A DNA stretch of 64,000 nt from Parahaliea mediterranea (GTDB lineage: Bacteria > Pseudomonadota > Gammaproteobacteria > Pseudomonadales > Halieaceae): contig NZ_QEWO01000011.1 of the NCBI RefSeq assembly GCF_003402235.1, forward strand, positions 1 to 64,000, in the 5' to 3' direction. Numbering within the stretch: position 1 is the stretch's first letter; each line of letters opens with the position of its first letter. The translations under genes were made by a program, and so were the position numbers. Of this stretch, positions 8,474 through 56,267 are shown one piece after another. The notes beneath the pieces were generated by a model. It worked only from the letters and a program-made list of their open reading frames with translations, was not told the DNA's origin and ran no database searches.

Positions 8474-10846
<2,373 letters not shown>

Positions 10847-14560: not shown

Positions 14561-15547
14561 GTGTCTGGCGAATCGCGCTACAGCCGTCAGCTGCGCCTTG
14601 AGGAAGTAGGGGAGCAGGGCCAGCGGCGCCTGGGGCAGGCGCGGGTGCTGGTGGTGGGGCTGGGTGGCCTTGGGCTGCCGGCGGCGGCCTACCTGGCCGG
14701 TGCCGGCATTGGCCACATCACCCTGCTGGATGCCGATGTGGTGGCGCTGCACAACCTGCACCGGCAGGTGTTTTACCGCGAGTCGGATGTGGGCACGCCC
14801 AAGGTGGTGGCGGCGGCCCGCCACCTGCGCGCACTCAATACCGACATAACAGTGACAGCGCAGCAGGAGCCCCTGCGCGATGCCAACGCCGCCGCGCTGG
14901 TTGCCGCACACGATGTGGTTGTGGATGCAGCGGACAGCTTTGCCGTGACCTACCTGGCGAGCGACGCCTGCCTGGCGGGACATACCTACCTTGTCTCGGC
15001 GGCCATTGTCGGCAACCGGGGGCACCTGGGTGTGTTCTGCCGGGATGCGCCGAGCTACCGCGCCCTGTTTCCGGCAGTGCCGGCGGCGGCGCCCGACTGC
15101 AGTAGCCACGGCGTGCTGGGCACCGCCGTGGGGGCGCTGGGGCTCATGCAGGCCCAGGAAGTCATCAAGCTGTTGCTGGCACCGGAGAGCGCGCTGGTGG
15201 GCAGGCTGTTGACCGTGGACTTCTGGCACCAGCGCTATGCCACCTTGGATTTTGGCCAGGCCGAGGAGCCGGCGGCGCCGCTGCGTATTGCTACCCTGTT
15301 GCCGGCGGAGCTGCGCCCGGGGGATCAGTTGGTGGATGTGCGCAGCGCGGACGAGATGACTGCTGCGCCCATAGCCGGCGCCCTGCACCTGCCGGACTGG
15401 GAGAACGCGAATGCACTGCAGGCGTTGCCGACGGCGCCCGGGCGGCTGGTGTTTGTGTGCGCCTCCGGCCGGCGTGCCAGGGCGGCGGCGCAGCGCCTGG
15501 CGGCGGTGCGCGGTGGCGCAGCGGTGGCGGTGCTGCTGCGCGCCTAG
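14561..15547 (+). CDS. thiF: ThiF/MoeB-family adenylyltransferase with C-terminal rhodanese domain
   Basis: Activates the C-terminus of ThiS by adenylation. The N-terminal 230 residues are the E1-like fold, with YSRQLRLEEVGEQGQ, the nucleotide motif VVGLGGLGLPAAAYLAGAGIG, and DADVVALHNLHRQVFY. The C-terminal region from about 245 (LRPGDQLVDVRSADEM to LVFVCASGRRARAAA) is rhodanese-like, with Cys in the active-site loop CASGRR. This layout resembles MoeZ/MoeBR proteins that both activate and sulfurate carriers. MoaD could be a second client. It starts at GTG 14561. Its stop shares the palindrome CTAG with the stop of the convergent gene. Confidence 0.88.
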   Translation: MSGESRYSRQLRLEEVGEQGQRRLGQARVLVVGLGGLGLPAAAYLAGAGIGHITLLDADVVALHNLHRQVFYRESDVGTPKVVAAARHLRALNTDITVTAQQEPLRDANAAALVAAHDVVVDAADSFAVTYLASDACLAGHTYLVSAAIVGNRGHLGVFCRDAPSYRALFPAVPAAAPDCSSHGVLGTAVGALGLMQAQEVIKLLLAPESALVGRLLTVDFWHQRYATLDFGQAEEPAAPLRIATLLPAELRPGDQLVDVRSADEMTAAPIAGALHLPDWENANALQALPTAPGRLVFVCASGRRARAAAQRLAAVRGGAAVAVLLRA

Positions 15548-16647
15548 TTTGTCGGGGCTGGGGCTGGGGCTGAATCAGAAGCCGGTGCCGGAGAAGGCGT
15601 CGTGGTGGCGTACTTCTGCCAGTTTTCACTCAGCTCTTTTACTACCTTGCTGCCCACCAGCCAGGCGTTTTCCAGCGCTGCATCCAGGCCGGCATAGCTG
15701 TCGTGCTGCTCTTCGCGCAGGTACTGCGCCGCGCTCTTGCCGGTGGGTGGCATGGTGAAGTTGGAAGCGGTGCGCAGCACCAGCACGCGGTTTTTATCCA
15801 CCTTGCCGGCCTGGTGCAGGTAAGTCAGCGACTGGAAGGTGCCGGTGTCCTCCATGGCGGAGCTGACGAATTCGCCCTTGCCGTCGGTCCAGTAGTCGGT
15901 CCACGCGTTGGCCCAGTCGTTCAGCAGTTTGCCGTGCCAGAAGGTCATGGCCGCCAGCTGGTCGCCCTTGAGCACAAAGGGGGTGCGCTGGGCCACCGGG
16001 TAGTCCGGGTAGAGCTTACGGGTGGCGGCCAGGGCCGGGTCGTCGGGCAGTGCCATGTCGCGGGTCAGCTGGAAGGCCCACTCCACCAGGCTGCTGTTGA
16101 GCTGGAACACTTCGCCCAGGCTGTAGCTTTTGCGCTTGGGGTCATTCGGGCCCTGGCTGAACAGGGGGAAGTAGCCGGTGTCCCAGTCGTCGGGTATTTC
16201 CCGGGCGTCAATTTCGTGGGCGAGGTCGCCGTCCACCAGGTACTCGGCCCAGGCCACCGAGCCCAGCGAGGCGTCTGCCGGGTCAAAGCCGGAAATACCG
16301 GCCACCAGCCAGTAGGCCTGGCTGAGGTCGAAGCGCGGGTCCAGGCCCAGGGCCATCACACTGGCGGCGGCGTTGGCCGTGCCCATGCCGGTGACAATGC
16401 CCAGCACGCCGAGCCTGGCGTTGTAGTGAATGTCGTGGTGCATGTGCGGCGCGGGGAATACGGTGTCCAGGGGCAGGCGTTCGTTCCAGCGCTGGAATTC
16501 GCCGGCGTCGTCGCCGCTGTCTTCGCCGGTTTCGAACATGGTCACCACCACCACCTTGATGGGGATGGGCTTTTCCGCCGCGCACAGCGGCAGGCTGGCC
16601 GCTAACAGGGGCAGCACAAGGGCGAGGGCACTGAGGACTCTGAACAT
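15544..16647 (-). CDS. NUP-family purine nucleoside protein, exported
   Basis: A 367-residue protein of the purine nucleoside permease (NUP, PF06516) family, with a Sec signal peptide at about 1-24 (MFRVLSALALVLPLLAASLPLCAA). The mature part has no further membrane span. It contains VVVVTMFETGEDSGDDAGEFQRW, GIVTGMGTANAAASVMALGLD, and WLVAGISGFDPADASLG, which recall the nucleoside phosphorylase fold. I therefore infer a periplasmic nucleoside-binding or nucleoside-cleaving protein rather than a true permease. It ends in an Ala/Pro/Ser tail. The start is the ATG before the signal peptide. It follows rbsK by 19 bases in the same operon. Confidence 0.8.
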   Translation of the reverse strand: MFRVLSALALVLPLLAASLPLCAAEKPIPIKVVVVTMFETGEDSGDDAGEFQRWNERLPLDTVFPAPHMHHDIHYNARLGVLGIVTGMGTANAAASVMALGLDPRFDLSQAYWLVAGISGFDPADASLGSVAWAEYLVDGDLAHEIDAREIPDDWDTGYFPLFSQGPNDPKRKSYSLGEVFQLNSSLVEWAFQLTRDMALPDDPALAATRKLYPDYPVAQRTPFVLKGDQLAAMTFWHGKLLNDWANAWTDYWTDGKGEFVSSAMEDTGTFQSLTYLHQAGKVDKNRVLVLRTASNFTMPPTGKSAAQYLREEQHDSYAGLDAALENAWLVGSKVVKELSENWQKYATTTPSPAPASDSAPAPAPTN

Positions 16648-16666
16648 CGGGCGATTCCTTGCAGGA

Positions 16667-17599
16667 TTAACGGGATTGCAGAAAGTGGTCGATGGCATCG
16701 CGGGTGGGGGCGCTGGCCTGCGCCCCCAGGGTCTGCACCGACAGGGCCGCGGCGGCCTGGGCAAAGGCGATGGCGTCGACCAGCGCCTGGCCCCGGGTCA
16801 GGGCGGCCGCCAGGCAGCCGTTGAACACATCGCCGGCGGCGGTGCTGTCCACTGCCTGCACCGGGTAGGCGCCTAGCAGCTGGCCGGGCGCGCTATTTTG
16901 CCCGTCGTCGCGCGACATGTACACGCCGCGCTCGCCGAGGGTTAGCAGCACCGTGGCCACGCCGCGCTGGTGCAGCACAGCGGCGGCGGCCGCGGCACTG
17001 CTGGCGTCGCTGACGGCGATGCCGGTGAGTAATTCCGCCTCGGTCTCATTGGGCGTGATCATGTCCAGCAGCGGGTAGAGCTCGGCCGGCAGGTCCTGCG
17101 CCGGGGCCGGGTTCAGGATCACCACCGCGTCGGCCTCTCTGCCGAGGGCCGCCGCGCGCAGCACGGTTGGCAGCGGGGTTTCCAGTTGCAGCAACACCAC
17201 CGCGGCCTTGCGAAAGGCGCTGGCGGCCGCTTCCAGGTGGCGCACCGCCAGGGCGTCGTTGGCGCCGGCGGCGACGGCTATGCAGTTCTGGCCGTCGGCC
17301 CCCACCAGAATCTGGGCGATGCCAGAGGGCAGTTTTGGGTCCACGCTGCAAAAGCGGGTATCCACGCCGTCGGCGGCAAAGCCGGCCAGGGCGGCCTCGC
17401 CGAAACTGTCATCCCCCACCCGGGCAATCAGGCTCACCTCGCCGCCCGCGCGGGCGGCGGCCACCGCCTGGTTGGCGCCCTTGCCGCCGGCGGCGGTGCT
17501 GAAGGTGCCGCCGAGCACAGTTTCACCGGGGCGGGGCAGGTGCGGCACCTGCAGGATCATGTCGGTATTGCTGGAGCCGACCACAAGCAACTGTGCCAT
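16667..17599 (-). CDS. rbsK: Ribokinase (PfkB family)
   Basis: Phosphorylates ribose to ribose 5-phosphate. It is a 310-residue PfkB protein. The N-terminal substrate region GSSNTDMILQVPHLPRPGETVLGG and GGKGANQAVAAARAGG are standard ribokinase motifs. ITPNETEAELLTG and the catalytic loop DSTAAGDVFNGCLA follow, the latter with Ala where most have Gly (DTTGAGD). The catalytic Asp is retained. The ATG at 17599 overlaps the stop of the transporter gene (ATGA), so sugar import and phosphorylation are coupled. The neighbours suggest that its ribose comes from nucleosides. Confidence 0.88.
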   Translation of the reverse strand: MAQLLVVGSSNTDMILQVPHLPRPGETVLGGTFSTAAGGKGANQAVAAARAGGEVSLIARVGDDSFGEAALAGFAADGVDTRFCSVDPKLPSGIAQILVGADGQNCIAVAAGANDALAVRHLEAAASAFRKAAVVLLQLETPLPTVLRAAALGREADAVVILNPAPAQDLPAELYPLLDMITPNETEAELLTGIAVSDASSAAAAAAVLHQRGVATVLLTLGERGVYMSRDDGQNSAPGQLLGAYPVQAVDSTAAGDVFNGCLAAALTRGQALVDAIAFAQAAAALSVQTLGAQASAPTRDAIDHFLQSR

Positions 17600-18609
17600 C
17601 ACGCCCCCTGCAGGTTGGAGTAGATAATCAGGGCCAGGCCCAGCAGAAAGCACGCGAACATGGCGCCAATCAGCTTGCCGGTGCCGGCGGGGGTATCGCG
17701 AAACTCCTTCCAGATAAACACGCCCCAGAAGGCCGCCACCATGGTGGCGCCCTGGCCGAGTCCGTAGGACACGGCGTACCCCGCCTTGCCGGCGGCAATG
17801 ATGTTGAAGCAGAAGCCGGTGGCCCAGATGGCGCCGCCAAGCATGCCCACCATGTGCAGGCGCGGCGTGCCGCGGCTGAAGTATTCACCGGGCGGCGCCG
17901 CTTCGCCGGTTACCGGCCTGTACATCAGCGGCAGCAAGAACAGCAGGTTGGAGGCGAGCAGGCCGATGGCGAACACCACGGCCGCGGAATAGGGCGTCAT
18001 CAGCCCGGCCTCTGGCGCGGCAAAGTCAAACGACATGGACTGGGCCACAAAGCGGTAGAAGAACCCCATGGCGATGCCGGCCACAATGGAAATGGCCAGG
18101 CCCTTGCCAGTGTTGGCAGAGCGTTCGGTGGGAATGCGGCGGTAGATCAGGGCGTCGACCACAATGGCCACTACCACCAGGGCCACGCCCACAAACAGCA
18201 GTGTGGGGTGGTGTACCTGGGCCGGGTCGTAGTTGGCGAGCACGCCGATCACCAGCGCCAGCCCGATGCCCACCGGGAAGGCCACGGCCATGCCGGCGAT
18301 ATCGATGGCGATCACCAGCAGGATGTTGGCAAAGTTGAATACCGCGCCGCCCAGCAGGGCCATGACAATGGCATGCCTACTGGCCTGGGAAATATCCGGC
18401 ACAAAGCCGCGCCCTTCGCTGCCGTTGCTGCCGAGGGTAAAGGCCATCAGCAGGGCCAGCAGCACCACGCCGATGGAATAGTCCCAGTAAAAATGCTGGA
18501 AGCGCCATTGTTGGGTGGCCATTTTCTGGGTGTTGGCCCAGGAACCCCAGCACAGCATGGTGACAAAGCACAGCGCCACGGCCACGGCATAACTTTGGAC
18601 AATAAACAT
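17599..18609 (-). CDS. GRP-type (glucose/ribose) sugar transporter
   Basis: An inner-membrane protein of 336 residues with about ten predicted helices, starting SYAVAVALCFVTMLCWGSWAN. The motif CWGSWANTQK and the later GYAVSYGLGQGATMVAAFWGVFIWKEF match the GRP/RhaT-like branch of the drug/metabolite superfamily, which imports sugars by ion symport. Coupling to rbsK by a 4-base overlap makes ribose the best-supported substrate, although an intact nucleoside is possible. The ribosome binding site AGAGGG lies 8 bases before the ATG. It is separated from the upstream TonB receptor gene by a terminator hairpin. Confidence 0.8.
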   Translation of the reverse strand: MFIVQSYAVAVALCFVTMLCWGSWANTQKMATQQWRFQHFYWDYSIGVVLLALLMAFTLGSNGSEGRGFVPDISQASRHAIVMALLGGAVFNFANILLVIAIDIAGMAVAFPVGIGLALVIGVLANYDPAQVHHPTLLFVGVALVVVAIVVDALIYRRIPTERSANTGKGLAISIVAGIAMGFFYRFVAQSMSFDFAAPEAGLMTPYSAAVVFAIGLLASNLLFLLPLMYRPVTGEAAPPGEYFSRGTPRLHMVGMLGGAIWATGFCFNIIAAGKAGYAVSYGLGQGATMVAAFWGVFIWKEFRDTPAGTGKLIGAMFACFLLGLALIIYSNLQGA

Positions 18610-18665
18610 GATTCAGCCCTCTGTTTTCGTATTGTCAGGCACCACAATCATTCTGCCCACACAGT

Positions 18666-18691
18666 AAAAACCCCGGCGAGCCGGGGTTTTT
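18666..18691 (-). terminator. Rho-independent terminator after the TonB receptor gene
   Basis: AAAAACCCCGGC-GAG-CCGGGGTTTTT is a 7-bp GC stem flanked by A and T tracts, so it can act on both strands. It lies 53 bases past the stop of the receptor gene and 57 bases before the transporter start. It probably separates the receptor transcript from the transporter-rbsK-NUP operon. Confidence 0.85.
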
Positions 18692-18743
18692 ACGCGGGCT
18701 ATCTTCCAGTGTAGAAGATGGCTTTCACTCCGGCTACGCCCTG

Positions 18744-20885
18744 TCAGAACCGGGTGGCCAGAGACAGGCCCCACACCCGGGGCTCGTTGGTAAAGCCGGT
18801 CAGGTTGTTGAAGTCGATGGCGCCCTGCACGTTTTCCTCGTCGGTGATGTTGCGGCCGAACAGGGCGATTTCGTAGCCGCCGTCGCGCAGGCGCCAGCCC
18901 AGGCGTACGCCGCCTTCAAACTGATCTTCGGTGCGAAATTCCACTGCATCGTAAAGGAAGATCTGGGTATCGCCCTGGTAGGACCAGTCGGTAAACGCAA
19001 ACAGCTCGGACTCCCGGCCCACCGGCACGCTGTAGGACAGGGTGAAGTTGTAAGTGGTTTCCGGCGCGTTGGGGAAGGGGTTGCCATCCACAAACACCAG
19101 GCCGTTCTCGTCCACCGGGTTGGTGATGGTGCACATGCCGGAGCCGCAGCCACCCACGCGCAGGTCGCCGTCTTCAATCTCGGTGTCGGCATAGGCGGCG
19201 CCGAAGGTCATCTGCAGGTTGTCGGTAACGGCCCATTCCACATCCAGTTCAATGCCCTGGCCTGTGCCCTGCTCGGCGTTCACCAGCTGGATCAGGTTGT
19301 TGGTGCCGCCAACGGCGGTGAACTGCATATCGCTGACTTCGTAATAGAACACCGCCGTGTTCAGGCGCAGGCGATTGTTCATCAGCTCGGCCTTGTAGCC
19401 GAACTCGATGGAGTCGATGGTTTCGGAATCCGCCACCGAGGGCGCGGCGCCAAAGGCCACGTCGCGGCCCTGGATGGTGGGGGCGCGAAAGCCGGTGCCC
19501 ACCTTGGCCCACAGGGTGCTGTTGTCGCTGACGGCGAAGGACAGGGCGACATCACCGCTGACCTGGTCGTCGGACACGCTCACATCGTAGCCGGGGGCGG
19601 TAAAGTCCTTGTCATCGTCGGTGTAGCGGATGCCGGCGGTCAGGGTCCACAGCTCGCCCAGGGCCAGGTCACCCTGGCCGAACACGGCCCAGGTGGTGTT
19701 GTCGTGGTTGACGGTGGTGGGGGGGACAAAGCCCGGGTCGGTCTCTACATCCAGGGTGCCGTCAAAATAGAAGGCGCCGGCCTGCCAGTTAAAGGCGCCA
19801 TCGCTGTTGCTGGACACGCGCAATTCCTGGGTGAACTGCTCCACATCCGCCGAGTCCTGGGTTTCGGAGGGGAAGGGAATAAAGCCCGGGCCGGTGACCA
19901 GGTTGCCGCCGTCGATGTCACCCAGGCTGCGCCCGTCGGCCTCGTCCCAGGAGGTGATGGAGGTCAGTGTCACGGCGCCGATGTCGTAGTCCAGCTTCAG
20001 GTTGGCGCCGCCGTTCTGGTATTGCTGTGGGTTGTTGTCGCCGCCGTCAAAGAACACGGTGTCGCGGTCGTAGTTGTCGTTCAGGTCGTTACTGCCCGGG
20101 TCGAAGATATTGGCGCGGAACACGGCGGCGGTGCCGTCCAGATCGCGGTAGTGGGCGCCAAGCAGGGCAGAGAACTGATCGTTCGGCTCCCACAGCAGGA
20201 AGCCCTTGGCGGCCTTCTCGACAAAACCACCGAGGGCGTCGTCTTCGCCGGTGAAGTCGTTGTCGATGTAGTCCTCGCGGCTCTGGTAGAGCACGGCGAT
20301 GCGCCCGGCCAGGGTGTCGGTCAGGCCGCCGCTCATGGCGCCTTCAAAATTGGTGGTGCCAAGGGTGCCTACATCGACTTTGGCGTGGCCCTCGGGCTCG
20401 TAGGTGGGTTTGTTGGAATCGAACTTGACGATGCCGGCGGTGGTGTTGCGCCCGAACAGTGAGCCCTGGGGCCCGCGCAGCACTTCCACCCGGTCGATGT
20501 CGAACAGGGGGAAGCTCTTGAGCACCACGTTTTCCTTGACCACCTCGTCCATGATCACCGACACCGGCTGGGAGGCGGCGAGGTCGAAATCGATATTGCC
20601 GAGGCCGCGAATATAAAAGCGCGGGGCCACGCGACCGTTGGAGGATTCCACATACAGGCCGGGCACCCGGGCCGACAGGCCGCGGATATCGGCACCGCCT
20701 TCAAACAGCGAGGTAAAGCGCTCGCCGGACAGGGTGGCCACCGACAGGGGCACATCAATCAGGCTCTGTTCCCGCTTCTGGGCGGTTACAATCACTTCTT
20801 CCAGTTGGGCCAGCGCAGGGTTTGCGCTGACGGCAGAGGCCGTGGCGGCAGCAAGGGCCAGATGCACAGGGCTAAAACGTTTCAT
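18744..20885 (-). CDS. TonB-dependent receptor (probable nucleoside uptake)
   Basis: An outer-membrane receptor of 713 residues. A signal peptide covers about 1-26 (MKRFSPVHLALAAATASAVS...ALA), then comes the TonB-box region LEEVIVTAQKREQSLIDVP. The plug domain carries VEVLRGPQGSLFGRNTTAGIV, and the 22-strand barrel ends in LATRF with a terminal Phe. The ATG at 20885 is chosen for its signal peptide and an AGGAG site 8 bases upstream. It is divergent from an exported deaminase and upstream of sugar and nucleoside genes, so a nucleoside or related purine compound is the likely ligand. Sequence alone cannot show the ligand. Confidence 0.88.
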   Translation of the reverse strand: MKRFSPVHLALAAATASAVSANPALAQLEEVIVTAQKREQSLIDVPLSVATLSGERFTSLFEGGADIRGLSARVPGLYVESSNGRVAPRFYIRGLGNIDFDLAASQPVSVIMDEVVKENVVLKSFPLFDIDRVEVLRGPQGSLFGRNTTAGIVKFDSNKPTYEPEGHAKVDVGTLGTTNFEGAMSGGLTDTLAGRIAVLYQSREDYIDNDFTGEDDALGGFVEKAAKGFLLWEPNDQFSALLGAHYRDLDGTAAVFRANIFDPGSNDLNDNYDRDTVFFDGGDNNPQQYQNGGANLKLDYDIGAVTLTSITSWDEADGRSLGDIDGGNLVTGPGFIPFPSETQDSADVEQFTQELRVSSNSDGAFNWQAGAFYFDGTLDVETDPGFVPPTTVNHDNTTWAVFGQGDLALGELWTLTAGIRYTDDDKDFTAPGYDVSVSDDQVSGDVALSFAVSDNSTLWAKVGTGFRAPTIQGRDVAFGAAPSVADSETIDSIEFGYKAELMNNRLRLNTAVFYYEVSDMQFTAVGGTNNLIQLVNAEQGTGQGIELDVEWAVTDNLQMTFGAAYADTEIEDGDLRVGGCGSGMCTITNPVDENGLVFVDGNPFPNAPETTYNFTLSYSVPVGRESELFAFTDWSYQGDTQIFLYDAVEFRTEDQFEGGVRLGWRLRDGGYEIALFGRNITDEENVQGAIDFNNLTGFTNEPRVWGLSLATRF

Positions 20886-21112
20886 GTGGAGTCTCCTACC
20901 AAAGATCACTTGAGTTTGTTCTATGCGGGGCTGTGCAGGGCTCTGGCGACCCCAACTGGTGTTATTGGCACAAGTGTGCAAAATTTACTCTTATCGAAGG
21001 GAACTCGCAGCCCGATTCAGCAAAAGTACCAGAATTGTCGCCCGCTACCGCCGCCAGGCGCTGCCGCGGGCCGCTTGCCGTTTGGCCAATGCATGACAGG
21101 GGGAATGAAAAC

Positions 21113-22555
21113 GTGACACGACTTCACTCGGCGGCTCGCTTTGCGGGCCTGCTGGCCTGTATCGCGCTGCTGCAGGGCGCGGCTGCTGCGCCGGCCCTGG
21201 CCGCGCCGGATCTCATCATCTACGGCGACTACGTCCTCACCATGGACCCGCAGCAGCCCGAGATTCGCGACGGCGCCGTGGTGATTGAGGACGATCGCAT
21301 TGTGGCGCTGGGGCCGCGCAAGGACATCGACGCCCGCTATGTTGCCCCGCGCAGCCTGGGCGGCGCCGGGCGCATTGTCATGCCCGGGCTGATCAACGGC
21401 CACACCCACACCGCCATGACCTTGTTCCGCGGCATGGTAGACGACCTCGATCTGATGACCTGGCTCAACCAGTACGTGTTCCCCATGGAGGGGCGCTTTG
21501 TAACACCGGCATTCATCCGCGCCGGCACCGGCCTTGCCTGCTGGGAGATGATCCAGGGCGGCACCACCACTTTCGTGGATATGTACTTTTACCCCGACGA
21601 CATTGCCGCCGTGGTGCAGGACTGTGGCCTGCGGGCGGTGATCGGTGCGCCGCATATCGACTACCCCAGCCCGGGCTTTAAAGGCTGGGAGGATTCCTTC
21701 GCCGCCGCGGAAGACTTTGTGCGCCGCTGGCAGGGTCGCCACCCGCGCATCACCCCGGCCTTTGCGCCCCACGCGCCCTACACCGTGGTGCCACAGCATC
21801 TGCGCGCCACGGTGGAAAAAGCCGCCGAGCTGCAAGCGCCCATTACCATGCACCTGGCGGAAGCGCCGGCGGAGAGCGCCTTCATTGCCGAGCACTACCA
21901 GAGCACGCCGGTGCAGCATGCCGCCCGGCTCGGCCTGTACGGCCAGCCGCTGATTGCCGCCCACATGGTGCAACTCAACGACGAGGACATTGCCCTGACC
22001 GCCCGGGCCGGCGTTGGCGCCATTCACAACCCCACCTCCAACATGAAGCTGGGGGCGGGCATATCGCCGGTGCCGGCAATGCTGGCGGCGGGGGTGTCGG
22101 TGGGCCTTGGCACCGACGGCGCCGCCAGCAACAACGACCTGGATATGTGGGAGGAAATTCGCATGGCAGCCCTGTTGCACAAGGTGGACAGTGGCGACCC
22201 CACCGCCTTGCCGGCGGCGCAGGCCCTGGCCATGGCCACCCGCCTGGGGGCCGCCGCCATTCACCAGGCCGGTGAGATTGGCCAGCTCAAGGTCGGCATG
22301 CAGGCGGATGTAATTCAGGTGGCAGTGGACAAAACCCGCCACCAGCCCCTGTACGACATCAGCTCCCACCTGGTGTACGTGCTCGATAGCACCGATGTGG
22401 TGTCCACCGTGGTGGCGGGCAGGGTGCTGATGGAAGAGCGGCGGGTGCTGAGCATGGACGAGGCCGTCCTGCGCAAGCAGGTGGCCGAGCGCAGCGTGGA
22501 GATTCGCGCGGCGCTGCTGGAACAGACCGAAAAGACTGAACAGGGGGATAACTGA
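21113..22555 (+). CDS. Exported amidohydrolase, adenosine/guanine/MTA deaminase-like
   Basis: A 480-residue metal-dependent amidohydrolase of the TrzN/SsnA/MtaD branch. Metal ligands are seen in GLINGHTHTAMTLFRG, ITMHLAEAPAESAF, LIAAHMVQLNDEDI and GLGTDGAASNNDLDMW. Family members deaminate purines or nucleosides such as MTA, SAH, adenosine and guanine. A hydrophobic signal peptide (LLACIALLQGAAAAPALA) precedes the catalytic domain, which is unusual because characterised members are cytoplasmic. I start it at GTG 21113, after AGGGGGAA and directly before the signal peptide. The gene is translationally linked (TGATG) to the following DUF985 cupin, also exported. Confidence 0.85.
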   Translation: MTRLHSAARFAGLLACIALLQGAAAAPALAAPDLIIYGDYVLTMDPQQPEIRDGAVVIEDDRIVALGPRKDIDARYVAPRSLGGAGRIVMPGLINGHTHTAMTLFRGMVDDLDLMTWLNQYVFPMEGRFVTPAFIRAGTGLACWEMIQGGTTTFVDMYFYPDDIAAVVQDCGLRAVIGAPHIDYPSPGFKGWEDSFAAAEDFVRRWQGRHPRITPAFAPHAPYTVVPQHLRATVEKAAELQAPITMHLAEAPAESAFIAEHYQSTPVQHAARLGLYGQPLIAAHMVQLNDEDIALTARAGVGAIHNPTSNMKLGAGISPVPAMLAAGVSVGLGTDGAASNNDLDMWEEIRMAALLHKVDSGDPTALPAAQALAMATRLGAAAIHQAGEIGQLKVGMQADVIQVAVDKTRHQPLYDISSHLVYVLDSTDVVSTVVAGRVLMEERRVLSMDEAVLRKQVAERSVEIRAALLEQTEKTEQGDN

Positions 22556-23199
22556 TGGCGCAGGTAGCGAGCGGGGCGCCCGCTGGGCGCGGCGTAAAGT
22601 GCATCGCCGGCTTGCTGATGCTGACGGGCACGCTGCTTGGCGGCAATGCAGCGCTGGCCGGGGCATCTACCGGGGCAGCCACCGAAACAACCACGTCGGG
22701 TTTCACCCTCCCGGATCGGGACACGGTAATCCGCGAGCTGCAACTGGAGAGCCACGTGGAAGGCGGTTATTTTCGCCGCACCTACCAGGCAGATGACCAG
22801 CCGCGCGTGGCAACGCCTGCCGGTGAGCGCTACAGCCTGACCTCCATCCACTACCTGCTGACGGCGGATTCACCCACCGGGCATTGGCACCTGAACCGCT
22901 CGGACATTGTGCACTACTGGCACCTGGGCGCGCCGGTCGAGTATTTCATGATCCACCCGGATGGGCGCCTGGAAACCGCCGTGCTGGGGCCGGATCTGGC
23001 GGCGGGCCAGCGCCTGCAGCTGACCGTCAAGGGCGGGGTGTGGAAGGCGTCGCACCTGAGCGCGGGGGATTACGGCCTGATCTCCGAAGCGGTGTCGCCG
23101 GGCTTTGAGTATGCGGACATGACGCTCGGCGAGCGCGACGTCCTGCTGGCGCGCTTTCCCCAGCACCGGGCATTGATACAGGCCTATACCCGCAAGTGA
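22555..23199 (+). CDS. Exported DUF985 cupin
   Basis: A 214-residue protein with a signal peptide of about 35 residues (IAGLLMLTGTLLGGNAALA), then a single DUF985 cupin domain. The domain has ELQLESHVEGGYFRRTY, SLTSIHYLLTADSPTGHWHLNRSDIVHYWHLG, and GVWKASHLSAGDYGLISEAVSPGFEYAD. The His and Glu pattern of the barrel could bind metal. DUF985 proteins are usually cytoplasmic and their reaction is not settled. This start overlaps the stop of the deaminase (TGATG), so both are made together. I infer a role in processing the deaminase product or substrate in the periplasm. Confidence 0.78.
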   Translation: MAQVASGAPAGRGVKCIAGLLMLTGTLLGGNAALAGASTGAATETTTSGFTLPDRDTVIRELQLESHVEGGYFRRTYQADDQPRVATPAGERYSLTSIHYLLTADSPTGHWHLNRSDIVHYWHLGAPVEYFMIHPDGRLETAVLGPDLAAGQRLQLTVKGGVWKASHLSAGDYGLISEAVSPGFEYADMTLGERDVLLARFPQHRALIQAYTRK

Positions 23200-23248
23200 T
23201 GTCGCCGGCCGGGTTGCGGCTTGGGCGCGGTGATCGAACCCGCGAGCC

Positions 23249-23830
23249 CTAGCGCTTCTGCAATTCGGCCATTTTGTCGATCATCTGCTCGGACATAAAA
23301 CCCAGCTCGGGCTTGTGCGCGCGCAGCTCGTCAATGCTCAAACCGTCCAGTTCGTGGGGGAAGACCAGCCACTCGTCGGTCTGGTGCACAAAGTAGTCGG
23401 GAATGCGCCCGGTCTTGTTGCGCCCGGGCTTGAAGTAGGGGGTGGCAATGCGGATTTCCGGCGTGTTCTTCTTGCAGGCCGCTTCCAGGTCCTTGATGGT
23501 CTGGTCGATGGACAGGCCGGAGTCGTGCACGTCATCCACAATCAGCAGGGAATCCTCCGACTCCAGGCGCTTGATCAGGTAGTTGAGCCCGTGCACCTGT
23601 ACGTGCCGGCTGCGCTGGTCGATGCCGGTGTAGGACGAGGTGCGGATGGCGATATGGTCCGAATCCACCTTCAGCACATGCAGCAGCTCCTGCACGGCAA
23701 TGCCCACCGGCGCGCCGCCGCGCCACACCCCGACAATGTAATTGGGCCGGTAGCCGCTTTCGTAAACCTGCCAGGCCAGGCGGAAGGAGTCTTCCAGCAA
23801 CTGCTGGGCGCTGATGTAATGCTTGTCCAT
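23249..23830 (-). CDS. Purine-type phosphoribosyltransferase (hypoxanthine/xanthine-like)
   Basis: A type I phosphoribosyltransferase of 193 residues. The PRPP-binding loop is LLIVDDVHDSGLSID (normally VDDxxxTG, here with Ser at the Thr position). The N-terminal YIVGVWRGGAPVGIAV holds the PPi loop. The C-terminal WLVFPHELDG resembles the hood of hypoxanthine/xanthine PRTases. It would convert a free purine base plus PRPP to the nucleotide in the cytoplasm. The ATG at 23830 has GGAG 7 bases upstream. It is divergent from the purine permease, so uptake and salvage of bases sit side by side. Confidence 0.82.
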   Translation of the reverse strand: MDKHYISAQQLLEDSFRLAWQVYESGYRPNYIVGVWRGGAPVGIAVQELLHVLKVDSDHIAIRTSSYTGIDQRSRHVQVHGLNYLIKRLESEDSLLIVDDVHDSGLSIDQTIKDLEAACKKNTPEIRIATPYFKPGRNKTGRIPDYFVHQTDEWLVFPHELDGLSIDELRAHKPELGFMSEQMIDKMAELQKR

Positions 23831-24075
23831 GGCGGGCTCCGGGAGTGACTTGTTGCGAAAATCCGGGCGCTGATAATGGCCCTGGATTCAGGGCGAGAGG
23901 TTAGCACAGGCCCGCCGGCTATGGTGCCCCGGGGGCTGATTCCGTACACTCGCCGGACGCGGCCCTGTGCCGCGGCGCAATAGCAAGAAGGCAGCAAGAA
24001 GGCACTAAAACAGCAGCGACCGCGCCACCACAGGCCGGCAACCGTTCAGCCAATAAACAGGGGAACACACAGCGC

Positions 24076-25386
24076 ATGGAGAACTCTGACCAGAGCCTGC
24101 TCGGCCGTTATTTCAGGCTGTCGGAGCACAACACCAGCGTGCGCAGCGAGCTGATTGCCGGCGCCACCACCTTTGTCACCATGGCCTACATCATCTTCGT
24201 CAATCCGCAGATGATGGCCTCTGCCGGCATGGACCCCAGCGCCAGCTTTGTTGCCACCTGCCTAGCCTCTGCCCTGGCCTGCTACATCATGGGGTTTTAT
24301 GCCAACTGGCCGGTGGGGCTGGCGCCGGGCATGGGCTTGAACGCCTTCTTCACCTACACCGTGGTGGCCGACATGGGCTACAGCTGGCAGGTGGCGCTGG
24401 GGGCGGTGTTCCTGGCCGGCATTCTGTTTGTGATCATGAGCGTGACCCGCATCCGGCGCTGGATGCTGGACAGCATCCCGCTGGATTTGCGGGTGGCGAT
24501 GGGGGCCGGTGTGGGCCTGTTCGTTGGCTTCATCGGCCTCAAGAGCGGCGGTATTATCGTCGCTTCCGAGGCCACCTTCCTGACCCTGGGTGACCTGACC
24601 CAGCCCGGCCCGGCCCTGGCCTGCCTGGGCTTTCTGCTGATTGCCATCCTCTCCATTCGCCAGGTGCACGGGGCCATCATCCTCGGCATTCTGGCCATTA
24701 CCCTGATTGGCCTGCTGACCGGGCAGGTACAGTACACCGGCCTGGTGGCTGCGCCGCCAAGCATCGCCCCCACCTTTATGCAACTGGACGTGGTGGGTGC
24801 CCTGGACGTGGCCATGACCAGCGTGATCATCGCCTTTCTGTTTGTGAACCTGTTCGATACCGCCGGCACCCTGCTGGGGGTGGCCAGTCGCGCCAACCTG
24901 GTGGACGCACAGGGCAACATCGAGAACATGGACCGGGCCCTGAAGGCCGACAGCACCTCCAGCGTGCTGGGCGCCTTCCTCGGCTGCGCGCCGGTCACCA
25001 GCTACGTGGAGAGCGCCGCCGGGGTGGCCGCCGGTGGCCGCACCGGCCTGACCGCGGTGACCGTGGGCACCCTGTTTCTGGCGGCGATCTTCTTCGCACC
25101 GCTGGCGGGCATGGTGCCGGCCTTTGCCACCGCTGGCGCTCTGATCTACGTTGCCATGCTCATGCTCACCGGCATGCAAGGCCTGGAGTGGCAGGACAGC
25201 ACCGAGGTGGTGCCGGCGCTGATCACCATTGTCATGATCCCCCTGTCGTTCTCCATCGCCAACGGCATTGCCGTGGGCTTCATCAGCTACTTGGCGATCA
25301 AGCTGTGCGCCGGCCGGCGCCAGGACATTTCCCCCGGGGCCTGGTTTCTGGCGGCCATCTTCCTCGCCAAATTCGCCTTCATGTAG
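24076..25386 (+). CDS. NCS2/AzgA-type purine base permease
   Basis: An inner-membrane proton symporter of 436 residues with 12-14 helices. The start region RYFRLSEHNTSVRSELIAGATTFVTMAYIIFVNPQ is the AzgA (hypoxanthine/guanine/adenine) signature. FDTAGTLLGVASRANLVD and SSVLGAFLGCAPVTSYVESAAGVAAGGRTGLTAV contain the substrate-site residues of the family. It follows a roughly 245-base spacer shared with the divergent PRTase gene. A GGGGAA sequence precedes the ATG. No terminator with a T run follows. A GC hairpin at 25400-25419 could serve. Confidence 0.9.
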   Translation: MENSDQSLLGRYFRLSEHNTSVRSELIAGATTFVTMAYIIFVNPQMMASAGMDPSASFVATCLASALACYIMGFYANWPVGLAPGMGLNAFFTYTVVADMGYSWQVALGAVFLAGILFVIMSVTRIRRWMLDSIPLDLRVAMGAGVGLFVGFIGLKSGGIIVASEATFLTLGDLTQPGPALACLGFLLIAILSIRQVHGAIILGILAITLIGLLTGQVQYTGLVAAPPSIAPTFMQLDVVGALDVAMTSVIIAFLFVNLFDTAGTLLGVASRANLVDAQGNIENMDRALKADSTSSVLGAFLGCAPVTSYVESAAGVAAGGRTGLTAVTVGTLFLAAIFFAPLAGMVPAFATAGALIYVAMLMLTGMQGLEWQDSTEVVPALITIVMIPLSFSIANGIAVGFISYLAIKLCAGRRQDISPGAWFLAAIFLAKFAFM

Positions 25387-50233: not shown

Positions 50234-51279
50234 TGGCTGGATTGAATCATCAAGCGGGCAGATTAAGCCGCAACGGTCGGGGGTTCTCCCTGATCGAGTT
50301 TATGGTGGCGATGGTTCTCGGCCTGATTATCATCGGCGGGGCAATTTCAGTCTATCTGGCTTCCAAGCGCTCGTTCACCGAAGTGGAACGGGTTGCCGAA
50401 CTCTCTGAGAACGCGCGTTTCGCCGTGCAGGTTATGGGGGATTCGTTGCGTCATGTCCGCTTTTTTGGGGGGGCAGCCCCGGGTGATATTAACGGGTCTC
50501 TTGGCACCATTAGCGGCGATTGTACGGGCAACGCCCGGGGCAGCCAGGTGCAGGGTACCGAGACCCTGCTGGCCACTACAGCCGATGGAAGCGGCGCAGC
50601 ATTCGGTTGCGTGACAGATGCCTTGCCGGGCACCGACGTGCTGGTCATTAAAAGCGTGCTTCCAAGGCCTGCCTACGATGCCAACCCGGAAGACCCCAAT
50701 GCCCCCACGGACGGGACAATATCGTTCCCTCAGCCTTTGAGTAACCAGGAGGTTTATGTCATAGCCAGCCCGCTGACGGCGCGCGGCGAGCTTTTTGTTG
50801 GCGCCAGCGCGGCGCCGTCGGTAGAAGAAACCCACCCCAATGTGCCAAAGGGTGTCGCCTGGCCCTACCGCATGCAGGTGTACTACATCCGGTCAGCCAA
50901 TGCCGGCACAGGCAACGTTCCGACCCTTAGCCGCAAGGTGCTGGGTTGGGATGCAACGGCAAGTGCGGTGGCCGTCCAGACAGAGGACCTTGTGCCAGGT
51001 GTAGAGCGCATGCGTCTGCGCTTCGGGATAGACAGCGACGGCGATGGCGCGGCTGACAGCTATGACTATGCGGCAACGGTACCCGACTGGGACGAGGTGG
51101 TGGCAGTAGAGCTTTTTCTGCTGGTGCGCAGCGCCGTCGCGGATGTTGGCTATGTCGATGACAAAACCTATCAACTCGGCGATGTCTCGGTAACGCCGAG
51201 TGATGGTTTCCACCGATTCCTGGTGCGCAACAGCATTTCATTGCGCAATCCAAAGCTGGAAATCAGGGGGGGAGGATGA
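50230..51279 (+). CDS. pilW: Minor type IV pilin PilW
   Basis: A 349-residue prepilin of the PilW/GspJ type. Cleavage is after NGRG, before FSLIEFMVAMVLGLIIIGGAISVYLAS, with Glu at +5. The VAELSENARFAVQVMGDSLRHVRFFG segment is a PilW hallmark. A large beta-rich C-terminal domain follows with VPGVERMRLRFGIDSDGDG, in which the Asp-rich DSDGDGAAD could bind calcium. The start overlaps the pilV stop and the stop overlaps the pilX start (ATGA). Confidence 0.9.
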   Translation: MMAGLNHQAGRLSRNGRGFSLIEFMVAMVLGLIIIGGAISVYLASKRSFTEVERVAELSENARFAVQVMGDSLRHVRFFGGAAPGDINGSLGTISGDCTGNARGSQVQGTETLLATTADGSGAAFGCVTDALPGTDVLVIKSVLPRPAYDANPEDPNAPTDGTISFPQPLSNQEVYVIASPLTARGELFVGASAAPSVEETHPNVPKGVAWPYRMQVYYIRSANAGTGNVPTLSRKVLGWDATASAVAVQTEDLVPGVERMRLRFGIDSDGDGAADSYDYAATVPDWDEVVAVELFLLVRSAVADVGYVDDKTYQLGDVSVTPSDGFHRFLVRNSISLRNPKLEIRGGG

Positions 51280-51806
51280 AGAGGTCAAGCCGTGCCCCGG
51301 TGAAGGGCTCCCAGGCAGGCATCGCGCTTGTGGTGTCACTGTTGTTCCTCTTGGTGGTGACCGTTATCAGCATCACCGCGGCCAGCAACAGCGCATTCAA
51401 CCTGAAAATGTCCTCAAACATGCAGGACAGCTACCAGTCTTTCCAGGCCGCTGAGGCCGGGGTTTACGCAACCGTGGCGCTGGGTCGGGACAGAGGGGGA
51501 GCGAACGACCCCTTCTTTTCCAGTGTGCCGGAGGTTGACCCTTTTGATGGCATGACAACCCATCCCCTGCTCGGCCTGGCGACCAGTGCCGGTGACCCGA
51601 ATTCGATTCCAGTCGATGTCAGAGTCATCTTTGTGACGGAGGCCGATTGCCCCCGACCTCCTGAAGGCCGCGGGGGGAGCAGTGGTGGCATTAACCCCCT
51701 GCTGCCCTGCAACTACTATCGAGTTGTTTCGGGGCACGATATTCCAGGGCGAGCGAGATCACGTGTTGAACTGGGTGTCGCCGCGGAACTTTTGAATTTG
51801 AATTAG
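51276..51806 (+). CDS. pilX: Minor type IV pilin PilX (GspK-like tip pilin)
   Basis: A 176-residue PilX. Cleavage is after SQAG, before IALVVSLLFLLVVTVISITAASNS. Position +5 is Val rather than Glu, as in GspK-like pilins that sit at the very tip. The following NMQDSYQSFQAAEAGVYATV matches PilX N-terminal helices. The C-terminal domain is short. It overlaps pilW by 4 bases and precedes pilY1. PilX and PilY1 interact in known systems, and the gene order agrees. Confidence 0.85.
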   Translation: MKRSSRAPVKGSQAGIALVVSLLFLLVVTVISITAASNSAFNLKMSSNMQDSYQSFQAAEAGVYATVALGRDRGGANDPFFSSVPEVDPFDGMTTHPLLGLATSAGDPNSIPVDVRVIFVTEADCPRPPEGRGGSSGGINPLLPCNYYRVVSGHDIPGRARSRVELGVAAELLNLN

Positions 51807-51906
51807 TGGATAGTTGCTGGCCAGGGTGCTAGCGCCAATTGGCGCCGCCATGGCAAGCAAGCGAATGATCAAACCCGAAGGTCGAGTCCTCGGGAAGGAA
51901 AGGTGG

Positions 51907-54900
51907 ATGATGTTCAGACAGTCTATTCGTTACGGTGCGATGTGCTGTGCATTGATACTGGGGGGCTTCTTCTCGGTGAATGCTCTCTACGCCGATGATA
52001 CTGAAATCTACAGATCGACCTATGACGGGACAAGCACCGGCGGCCGACCCAAGGTACTGATTGTCTTCGATGACTCGGGCAGTATGAGCACCATGGTCGA
52101 CCAGCAGCGCCCTCCCTACGATCCGGACGAGGACTACGAGGTCAGCTTCCCAGCCGGGCGTATCTACTGGACAACCGGTAACACAGTACCTGGCCCTGGC
52201 AGCGACAATTGGTTTGCCGCTTCGCAGAATCGCTGCGCCTCTTCCTATGAAAACCTGGAGATCAATGGTCAGTCGACGGTGGCGCGCGCAAGGCGCTGGG
52301 TGGACTCTACCGTTCAGCAGGGCCAGTGCTCCTGGCAGTGTCCTGATGGCTCAGTCTATCGTAGCCAGGCCAATCCCAGGGGCTGTTATACACAGGCAAC
52401 AACGCTGGAACCGACCCCCAAGCTGGTAAGGCGCCAGGGCTATAGCTACTTCTTTATTTTTCCGTATTGTCCCAACAGTTTGCTGTTTGTGGATGCAGCG
52501 TCATCTTCACTGGACGGGTGCTACGAGAGCGTTACCACCACTGAACCCTTGGCAGGTTGGGTATTTCGAAGAAACCCGCCAGGCAACAGCAACAACTGCC
52601 CTAATGGTACAACCCGGCTGACGGTGGAAGGCAGCAATGGCTGTTACGAGCAAAAAACCGCGCCGGAGAACGTTGAGGTAACGGATTGGCAATACTACAG
52701 CGACCGAGTCCGGGTGTGTGAGGACGAGACGGTGCTGCCGGGCAGCTGGGCTGCGCTCAGTGCCCAGGACCAGACCCCCACCCATGCGGAATGCCGTGAT
52801 GACGTGGACTCCGATAATACCGACAACGGCCCTGGGCAGACTGCCGGTTATCCCCAGGACAATGTGGCCAATGGACAGGAGTACGGGCCTGATCCGGACC
52901 CTTCTGTAAACTGGGGAAACCAGGCCTATACCTTCTATACCTCTCACTACCTTAACTGGTACCACGATGACTCACTGGTGGAGCCTCGAAGCCGGCTGGA
53001 CATCGCCCAGGAGGTGGTGAGTACCCTCATCAGTACCAATAAAGGCGTTGATTTTGGCCTGATGGAGTTCAACTACGACCAGGGTGGGCGAATCGTAAGG
53101 CGCATCATTGAGAATATGAGCGAAGCAGAACGGAGCAATCTGGTCGATATGGTGAATCTGATTGACCATGCGGGCAGTACACCGTTATGCGAATCGTTCT
53201 ATGAAAGCTATCGCTATCTGTCGGGTAACTCGGTGGTCTATGGCAGCCAGTCCCGGACGGGCAGCGACAGTCGTGGGGTTTACGATGTGTTGCCGCGCGA
53301 TCTGCTGGCACAGAGTGGCAACAACTACAATTCACCAGTATCGGATTGCGCCAATTCTTACGTCATTGTGATGACAGACGGCGAACCGCAGAACGACGAA
53401 GACGCGAATTCAGCCATCAAGACGCTAACCGGCGCGACCAGTTGCAACGAGTACCAGTATTCCGGCCAGGGCATGCGGGAGAGCTGTATGCCGGAACTTG
53501 CACAATACATGGCAACCACTGACCTGGACGGCGATGCCAGTAACGGCAACCAGTATGGCATTACCTATACCATTGGCTTCGCCACCGATCAGGATCTGCT
53601 ACGGGATACCGCTGAAAAGGGCAAAGGCGAGTACTACACCGCCAGCAACGCCCAGGAGCTGGCCAGCGCCTTCCAGGGGGCAATTACCAGCATCCTGTCC
53701 AAGGCGACCACCTTCACCTCGCCGGCGGTGGCCGTCAATACCTTCAACCGCACGCAGAGCCGGGAGGAGGTGTTCTATGCCATGTTCAAGCCCGGTGAGA
53801 GCGTGGACTGGATCGGCAATATCAAAAAGCTCAAGGTGACGCTGGATGCCGACGGCACCGCCGTGCTGCTGGATGCCAATGGCGATGAGGCCATCGATCC
53901 GCAGACCGGCTATATCAAGGACAGTGCAGTCACCTTCTGGGGGAGTTCTGCCGCCGATGGTGGGCTGGTGGACAAGGGGGGGGTTGGCGCGTTGCTGGCT
54001 GTCCGCGACCCTGCAACACGCACGCTGTATACCAACACCGGCAATGGCGGTGCGCTCCAGGCTTTCAATACGGATAACATCACAGCAGCCTCGATGGGTG
54101 TGGCAGATGATCAGGCGCTTTATCAACTGTTTGGTGCTTCTACGTTCGCGGCCTTCTCACGCCAGGTTGCCTGGGCGCGCGGCTTTGACGCCTTCAATGC
54201 CGATGCCAACCAGAGAGACCAGCCTAGATCCTGGGTGCTGGGCGATATTCTGCACAGCCAGCCTCTGGTAATTAACTACGGAGCCAGGAGCGGTTATACC
54301 GAGGCCAACCCCGACTTGCGCCTGCTGGTGGGTACCAATCACGGCTTTGTACACCTTTTCGGAGCAGCTGACGGCGTTGAAGACTGGGCTTTTTTCCCCA
54401 AGGAATTGGCACCTATCCTGGCCGAGCGCCGCCGTGATGCCATATCCAGTGCCAACATTTACGGTATGGACCTGACAGCCGTATTGCACACTGTGGATGT
54501 CAATCGTGATGGCACCATTGATGCAAGTGACGGAGACAAGGCCTGGGCTTATCTGGGTATGCGCCGGGGTGGCAAAGCCTATTACGCGCTCGATGTGTCG
54601 AACCCTGACAGCCCCACTTTCATGTGGCGCATTGGCCCCGATGTAGCCGGCTTTGAATTGCTGGGACAAAGCTGGTCTGAACCCGTGGTTACCCAAATTC
54701 CGGGCTACCGCGATGCCGAGGGGATACCCAAACCTGTGCTGGTCTTTGGGGGTGGTTACGATACCAACAAAGACGGCTATGGCCTTGCTACCCAGGACAG
54801 CCTCGGGCGGGGTATCTACATCGTTGACGCTCAAACCGGCGCACTGGTGTGGAGTGTCACTCCGGCTGCCAATAGCGCAACCAACCTGTCCGCACCCAAC

Positions 54901-55809: not shown

Positions 55810-56267
55810 TGTGTATTCAACCGGCTGCATTTTGCCGCCGTCCAGCGTGGGGTGCCGAGGGCGGCTTTACGCTGATTGAAGTGCTGATTGTGGTGGTTAT
55901 CGTGGGTCTGCTGTTGACGGTGGCGCTGCCTTCCTACCAGGGCAGTCTGCAGAAGGGGCGGCGTAGCGAGGCCAAGGCGGCCCTGCTGGAAGTGGCCAAT
56001 CGGCAAGAGCAGTACATGCTGGACCGCAATACCTACACCACTGACCTGACCGCGCTGGGGCTGGCAAACCCCTATATCACCGAGGAGCAGCATTACTCGG
56101 TAACCGCGGCTGGCTGCGGGGCAGGCGGCATTGCAACCTGCTACCTTTTGACGGCTACGCCGCGCGCGGGGTCACCCCAGATCAACGATAGCCGCTGTAC
56201 AGCTTTCACCCTTGATTCCTCGGGAACCAAGGGCGCTAGCGGAACGGCCCAGAATGAATGCTGGTAA
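55809..56267 (+). CDS. pilE: Type IV pilin PilE-like
   Basis: A 152-residue prepilin. Cleavage is after GAEGG, before FTLIEVLIVVVIVGLLLTVALPSYQ, with Glu at +5. The typical RRSEAKAALLEVANRQEQYMLDRNTYTTDLTALG segment follows, then a C-terminal domain with Cys pairs ending NECW. It is PilE-like, as in the last gene of the fimU-pilVWXY1Y2E operon. The start overlaps the pilY1 stop (TAATG). There is no separate pilY2. Confidence 0.88.
   Translation: MCIQPAAFCRRPAWGAEGGFTLIEVLIVVVIVGLLLTVALPSYQGSLQKGRRSEAKAALLEVANRQEQYMLDRNTYTTDLTALGLANPYITEEQHYSVTAAGCGAGGIATCYLLTATPRAGSPQINDSRCTAFTLDSSGTKGASGTAQNECW

Follow-up and report, generated by a model that had tools for sequence, protein, structure and literature searches.

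Purine nucleosides are imported intact by Escherichia coli and cleaved by phosphorolysis in the cytoplasm. A separate family, PF06516/COG5042 or "purine nucleoside permease" (NUP), is counted among transporter genes in a passage of metatranscriptomic work (PMC2847192), and a passage elsewhere already places it within the purine/uridine phosphorylase superfamily (PMC9815663). In further passages, lumen-targeted APEX2 enriched a cyanobacterial "purine nucleoside permease" that the cytoplasmic APEX2 samples did not yield (PMC7880944), and a yeast NUP is listed in a predicted secretome (PMC10657120). Here, a 64,000-nucleotide stretch of Parahaliea mediterranea DNA (positions 1 to 64,000 of contig NZ_QEWO01000011.1; "the window") is analysed, in which a NUP gene lies within a locus at 15544-25386. 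As an earlier sequence-only reading had proposed, this locus is probably a purine-nucleoside scavenging system with periplasmic cleavage. From the predicted structure, conserved motifs and gene neighbourhoods we conclude that the NUP encoded here probably acts as an exported purine nucleosidase, in which case the family name is likely to be wrong. The passages of PMC9815663, PMC9431476, PMC7880944 and PMC10657120 make no claim that NUP is an enzyme, and no title describing the pathway was found in the open-licence literature, so that a description may still be in print elsewhere.

All eight genes of the purine-nucleoside cluster named in that reading are present by family profiles and start-site review, arranged as two divergent gene groups and two further genes encoding a purine phosphoribosyltransferase (PRTase) and an AzgA permease:

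15544..16647, minus strand: NUP (PF06516) with a Sec-type signal peptide; proposed exported purine nucleoside N-ribohydrolase (start at 16647 by start-site review)
16667..17599, minus strand: ribokinase (NF008353, 357.6 bits against a cut-off of 341; ATG at 17599)
17599..18609, minus strand: transporter between the ureide-permease and sugar-transport families by profile scores; proposed ribose importer
18744..20885, minus strand: TonB-dependent outer-membrane receptor by family profiles; proposed nucleoside receptor
21022..21035, plus strand: conserved element AAAAGTACCAGAAT in the promoter region between the divergent TonB and deaminase genes; possible operator or promoter, from conservation in related regions
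21113..22555, plus strand: exported amidohydrolase of the TrzA/MTA-SAH-deaminase family by family profiles, with a GTG start; proposed periplasmic adenosine deaminase
22555..23199, plus strand: exported DUF985 cupin (Cupin_5), from its family profile and N-terminal hydrophobic segment
23249..23830, minus strand: PRTase (Pribosyltran) by family profile, with no export signal
24076..25386, plus strand: AzgA-type purine-base permease (Xan_ur_permease); nearest solved relatives AZG1/AZG2

The minus-strand group is transcribed in the order TonB receptor, small transporter, ribokinase and NUP, with the ribokinase ATG at 17599 sharing one base with the transporter stop codon, and the cupin start likewise overlaps the deaminase stop (22555). 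The genome measures 5.09 Mb and is 99.77% complete; judged by NUP, three Parahaliea species (86-90% identity) are the closest relatives that bear a name.

In the proposed pathway, the TonB receptor would carry nucleosides over the outer membrane, and the exported TrzA-type enzyme, a deaminase by family, would convert adenosine to inosine. The exported NUP, with the fold and motifs described below, would hydrolyse the N-glycosidic bond to give free ribose and hypoxanthine. The small transporter would take in the ribose, for conversion to ribose-5-phosphate by an enzyme of the ribokinase family, while the base would be imported by the AzgA-family permease and made into a nucleotide by the PRTase. 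The attached ribokinase and the lack of the phosphate-site Arg of the phosphorylases lead us to expect hydrolysis and not phosphorolysis.

The window NUP matches PF06516 over residues 30-350 with 398.1 bits (gathering score 27). A structure model built from an alignment of 54 NUPs (pLDDT 86.8, pTM 0.86) has the characteristic α/β fold of the nucleoside phosphorylase/nucleosidase superfamily. Foldseek returned 593 rows at E ≤ 0.001 with this model, the best 50 of which comprise 49 5'-methylthioadenosine (MTA)/S-adenosylhomocysteine (SAH) nucleosidases (MTANs) or futalosine hydrolases and one Plasmodium purine nucleoside phosphorylase (PNP). The model superposes on the Vibrio cholerae MTAN with Z 23.4 and a root-mean-square deviation (rmsd) of 2.5 over 231 residues, and on the periplasmic MTAN of Aeromonas with Z 23.2 and rmsd 3.0 over 234 residues (VIA). 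By sequence, the PDB gave no match to NUP, searched singly or as a profile, and the futalosine hydrolase profile TIGR03664 gave a weak one (E 0.00069, far below cut-off). Residue equivalence to MTAN is inferred from motif order, the secondary structure of the model and the fold because the profile comparison was not significant; the order of strands in the model presumably follows that of MTAN. M265-E266 precedes a helix near the C-terminal end, as does VEMEA in MTAN, and R292-x-x-S295-N296 lies in the next strand, as does RAISD. Over 138 NUP domains, in which the Halieaceae are counted twice through two overlapping fetches, E266 and R292 are invariant (138 each), S295 is found in 136 and M265 in 126. 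In two loci (L047 and L050), two NUP domains stand in tandem.

Position 296, equivalent to the catalytic Asp in the Ser-Asp motif of the MTA/SAH nucleosidases (MtnN), is Asn in the window NUP and in 130 of the 138 domains, Asp in seven distant members and Ser in one, a natural alternation of Asn and Asp that agrees with the assignment of the site. For 6-oxopurines, an Asn serves in human PNP and in methylthioinosine phosphorylase. A Ser-Asn in place of Ser-Asp would favour such substrates and so account for the deaminase beside NUP. In line with this, a deaminase-family gene, exported or not, scoring at least 150 bits to one of three deaminase queries, is found in the stretch around 102 of the 130 Asn-type NUP domains and around none of the other eight, although the Asp-type domains seem to form a single clade and the flanks fetched with them were shorter.

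The superfamily placement of NUP in PMC9815663 would also accommodate a phosphorylase that releases ribose-1-phosphate in the periplasm, a reading we consider very improbable. The position equivalent to NUP 115 is Arg in E. coli DeoD (RVGSCGA) and Udp (RIGTTGA) and Asn in MTAN, but it is Arg in none of the 137 NUP domains readable there, if this position indeed corresponds to the phosphate-site Arg, which we take to be R87 in DeoD. The nearest folds are moreover those of hydrolases, and the substrate of a ribokinase is free ribose.

A scan for NUP relatives gave 66 loci, and those from named Halieaceae have most of the gene set together. Within a sample of 140 Halieaceae genomes, NUP is present in 33, and the 32 NUP surroundings other than that of the window were fetched and their genes assigned by similarity. 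Two types were distinguished. Type A (24 fetched loci and the window) has a TrzA-type deaminase, TonB receptor and NUP, mostly with cupin, PRTase and AzgA; L083 and L098, cut by contig ends and with no deaminase visible, were assigned to it by NUP score and transporter. Type B (eight genomes) combines NUP with a cupin, a TonB-type receptor and a deaminase that is exported but belongs to the A_deaminase family. Among the 24 Type A loci, the deaminase occurs in 22, TonB receptor in 23, cupin in 20, PRTase and AzgA in 17 each, ribokinase in 15 and transporter in 12, some of these shortfalls being due to contig ends (e.g., L083, L091 and L098). In a co-occurrence comparison of the kind that the sequence-only reading had named as a check, the layout recurs within the Halieaceae, and all eight genes stand together in 8 of these 24 loci. 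As judged from the compared sequences, the gene arrangement is not due to chance. Type B stretches often carry a second NUP domain (six of eight) and also a short A_deaminase of the cytoplasmic kind (five of eight). In one locus (L109, genome G025), the NUP frame lies in pieces and the same-genus genomes G028 and G030 have the cupin without NUP, so that NUP may be decaying there.

Outside the Halieaceae, 54 loci from the 66-locus scan (L001-L012 and L065 set aside; 17 of the 54 shorter than full length) were compared at a threshold of at least 80 bits to window or representative proteins. A TonB receptor occurs in 39, a long A_deaminase in 37, an NCS2/AzgA permease in 32, a LysR regulator in 25, a TrzA-type amidohydrolase in 19, an IU nucleoside hydrolase in 11 and a PRTase of the window kind in 7; the TonB count says little alone because such receptors are frequent in these genomes. 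In a phylum-wide sample, NUP was found in 26 of 398 genomes (25 over cut-off), and 18 loci were fetched, leaving out the window's own genome, six members of genera already represented and G230, which is below cut-off. Among these distant loci of Burkholderia/Pseudomonas type, a deaminase is seen in four, TonB in three, Tsx in two, AzgA/NCS2 in four and cupin in one. Most thus lack such neighbours, and the cluster belongs to part of the NUP family. Several loci show further neighbours of NUP: genes resembling ExbB/ExbD/TolR (L011, L012, L016 and L019), perhaps a dedicated energiser for the TonB receptor; an adjoining gene resembling subclass B1 metallo-β-lactamases (L056:11008-11763 and the other Spirosoma loci L053, L055, L057 and L059, the family taken from L056); and, in sphingomonad loci such as L015 and L035, a LOG-family (Lysine_decarbox) gene, PRTase and LysR regulator on the strand opposite the NUP operon.

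Export was called by a hydropathy rule of our own, as a hydrophobic segment ahead of the conserved domain. Among the proteins of the window, a single hydrophobic segment, located N-terminally, is seen in NUP, in the deaminase and in the cupin, and by hydropathy neither ribokinase nor PRTase has a hydrophobic N-terminus. Across the family loci, an export-like segment occurs in 36 of 39 NUP frames, 12 of them lipobox-flagged; of the remaining three, two have a lipobox farther upstream and the third comes from a broken gene, of which it is the second piece. All but one of 23 deaminase frames also have such a segment (L108, which lacks it, matches weakly), as do 26 of the 28 for the cupin; for ribokinase it is seen in none of 9 frames and for PRTase in 1 of 16. 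The rule looks at the wrong place in the Type B A_deaminases (1 of 7), and by eye a signal-like segment directly precedes the domain in six of the seven, the seventh being truncated as read. In non-Halieaceae loci, 37 of which have an A_deaminase, a signal-like segment was seen by eye in all 23 N-termini read, and those of L047 and L050 start with a twin-arginine-like stretch. The periplasmic location proposed earlier for NUP, deaminase and cupin is therefore supported by predicted export signals across the family.

These signals also bear upon the possibility that NUP does transport nucleosides as a permease, or binds them without catalytic activity, with cleavage occurring elsewhere. Such a function would agree with the family name, with the transport reports on Candida (passages of PMC9431476) and with the Asn at the catalytic-Asp position, yet it is highly unlikely. 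Hydropathy over 19 residues reaches the membrane-span level of 1.6 at the N-terminal signal only (best elsewhere, 1.41), which leaves none of the membrane-spanning helices of a permease; residues 28-345 adopt a soluble enzyme fold in the model; E266 and R292 are invariant; and the genome holds no other nucleosidase or nucleoside importer of the families searched. In yeast, a base permease takes up adenine. Yeast adenine auxotrophs expressing the Candida albicans protein (CaNUP) grow on adenosine and are not sensitised to toyocamycin or analogues (passage of PMC9431476), as a secreted nucleosidase predicts, since adenine would be released and 7-deaza analogues resist cleavage. Structures of MTAN with methylthiotubercidin, known from their PDB titles, fit such resistance.

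In the genome, no match was found to the CNT, NupG, IU nucleoside hydrolase or A_deaminase families. PF01048 matched a single protein, a methylthioinosine phosphorylase, and no DeoD-type enzyme was found by that search. By the families searched, NUP is the only candidate nucleosidase in the genome. Elsewhere, six Halieaceae genomes encode NUP and an IU nucleoside hydrolase as a single exported fusion protein (L065:11153-13282, L101, L102, L103, L105 and L107; three assigned by Pfam and the rest by similarity). The two are separate neighbours in L141, and in Spirosoma an IU hydrolase lies about 1 kb or less downstream of NUP in five of seven loci, a sixth having a shorter frame about 3 kb away. 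A gene for the Tsx nucleoside channel stands directly upstream of an Asp-type NUP in two Pseudomonas-like loci (L138:6961-9059 and L150:6429-8489). The nucleoside cleavage attributed to NUP in the sequence-only reading thus gains weight from the modelled hydrolase fold, the retained ribose-binding motif, the IU-hydrolase fusions and the position of NUP as sole candidate nucleosidase among the families searched.

The ribose half of the pathway is represented by a ribokinase that passes NCBIfam equivalog cut-offs (357.6 against 341 for NF008353, and 339.4 against 299.65). The transporter had earlier been read as a sugar transporter: a transporter is indeed present and scores with the Sugar_transport profile, but more weakly (PF06800, 32.6 bits) than with Ureide_permease (PF07168, 67.8 bits), so that its sugar substrate is a matter of inference. 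It further scores 29.6 bits with TMEM144 and 35.7 bits with the RhaT/GlcU sugar symporter profile TIGR00776, below the cut-off of 319.6. In the 32 fetched Halieaceae loci, 12 have transporter and ribokinase, three the kinase only, 17 neither and none the transporter only (Fisher p 2e-6, kinship ignored). On the other side of NUP, L007, L009 and L012 have a ribokinase from a different clade, with about 40% identity and 350-368 bits to TIGR02152 (cut-off 299.65), and replacement by a more distant gene of the same activity points to free ribose as the product. The separate import of ribose and base in the proposed scheme is consistent with the lack of a CNT or NupG match in the genome and with a transporter never found apart from a ribokinase.

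On the base side, the deaminase belongs to Amidohydro_1, and its best NCBIfam match is NF006549, "TRZ/ATZ family hydrolase" (462 bits, below the cut-off of 540). The metal-site motifs HxH, H, H and D, located by motif, are present as H97/H99, H247, H284 and D335, and the alignment to 4dzh spans residues 32-458. A second, unlinked TrzA deaminase in the genome is 39% identical to it, and in Type B Halieaceae loci an A_deaminase replaces the TrzA enzyme. The DUF985 cupin occurs in 30 of 33 Halieaceae genomes with NUP as opposed to 4 of 107 without, and its solved relatives carry no functional name.

The family of this deaminase, which includes MTA/SAH deaminases, together with the close resemblance of NUP to the MTA/SAH nucleosidase fold and a TonB receptor that suggests something scarce or bulky, could mean that the main substrate salvaged by the locus is another adenosine-containing compound, such as MTA, SAH or 5'-deoxyadenosine. 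This is unlikely. Methylthioribose requires a kinase other than ribokinase. Ribokinases of two clades are linked to NUP in the Halieaceae, the deaminase elsewhere is of the adenosine-deaminase family, and MTA could be served in this genome by the separate TrzA deaminase and the methylthioinosine phosphorylase.

Against nucleoside scavenging through a catalytic NUP, several observations must be weighed. With hhalign, the NUP alignment gave a probability below 1% both to E. coli MTAN and to an alignment of MTAN, DeoD, Udp and methylthioinosine phosphorylase, in a comparison for which the NUP alignment was narrow (Neff 2.1) and two runs disagreed on the aligned segment. An Asp197Asn MTAN was crystallised with its substrate, as stated in a PDB title, and with N296 at the same site NUP could be slow or inactive. 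No recognised deaminase-family gene lies in the fetched stretch of 28 of the 130 Asn-type domains. In the fusions, the IU hydrolase could itself do the cutting. Ribokinase and transporter are both missing from 17 of the 32 Halieaceae loci (eight Type B and nine Type A) and from all 54 non-Halieaceae loci, two of which have the cupin. The distribution of the importer family CNT speaks for the pathway: a single one of the 24 fetched Type A genomes has it, compared with seven of the eight of Type B and 69 of the 107 that lack NUP (two of these 69 scoring below cut-off). These counts ignore kinship, however; by genus, the contrast holds for Type A (1 of 10, with 12 of 18 for the others), but there is no clear difference between genera with NUP of either type (5 of 14) and those without (8 of 14).

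The element AAAAGTACCAGAAT is present with at most three mismatches in all 22 related TonB/deaminase regions, compared with 13 of 22 for the next non-overlapping 14-mer, and the sequence around it drifts while the element stays. Its pattern occurs at two places in the genome and a control pattern at none. Two interpretations were dropped: a sigma-54 promoter, for which the spacing is wrong, and a general promoter of TonB receptors, given two genomic places and none for the control. Thiamine genes preceded by a TPP riboswitch (window positions 8727-8821) end at 15547, right next to NUP but on the other strand, and this gene set looks unrelated to the nucleoside cluster. Further away, at 51276-56267, a very long protein resembling PilY1 is encoded alongside pilin-like genes; recognised by eye, these suggest a set of type IV pilus genes.

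A broader proposal, which we hold to be somewhat better supported than its negation, is that the whole PF06516/COG5042 family, from fungi to bacteria, consists of exported N-ribohydrolases that form, in Gram-negatives, the core of a modular periplasmic pathway in which a Ser-Asn/Ser-Asp switch sets the need for a deaminase. The modules would be entry by a TonB receptor or Tsx, an exported deaminase of either of two families, NUP itself (sometimes IU-fused), the exported DUF985 cupin as a new component, and split import of the base and, in some, of ribose. If so, the function of a family counted as a transporter in metatranscriptomics would be corrected, marine bacteria would gain a nucleoside route that needs no nucleoside importer, the Candida "permease" would find a simpler reading, and an uncharacterised exported cupin family would be tied to purine metabolism. 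Cleavage in the periplasm would also liberate base and ribose, which could be shared with neighbours. A lead concerning the Xanthomonas periplasm (passage of PMC7748154) proved irrelevant.

Among described systems, NUP is most like MtnN, including the Aeromonas hydrophila MTAN 5b7q, periplasmic by its PDB title, with which it shares the fold, the Met-Glu and Arg..Ser-[Asp/Asn] motifs and the absence of the phosphorylase Arg. It differs in having Asn for the catalytic Asp, about 90 extra residues and only 12-18% identity over the rows shown, and in its linkage to nucleoside uptake and ribose salvage. CaNUP shares the family name and enables the use of external purine nucleosides (passage of PMC9431476), although it is described as a permease, whereas a soluble exported nucleosidase is proposed here. 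The exported A_deaminases found beside NUP elsewhere score with TIGR01431, the adenosine deaminase-related growth factors, but far below cut-off (32.0 and 92.9 bits against 315), and are bacterial and coupled to NUP. The extracellular nucleoside hydrolase of Arabidopsis (PMC4688390) likewise cleaves outside the cytoplasm, in a plant and without such a bacterial cluster. That enzyme belongs to the IU_nuc_hydro family and not to NUP. Finally, nucleoside salvage in E. coli through Tsx, NupC/NupG and DeoD has the same purpose, and Tsx itself adjoins NUP in the two related loci above; the window's genome, however, has no match to either importer family and no DeoD-type enzyme was found there, and its nucleosides would instead be split before they reach the cytoplasm.

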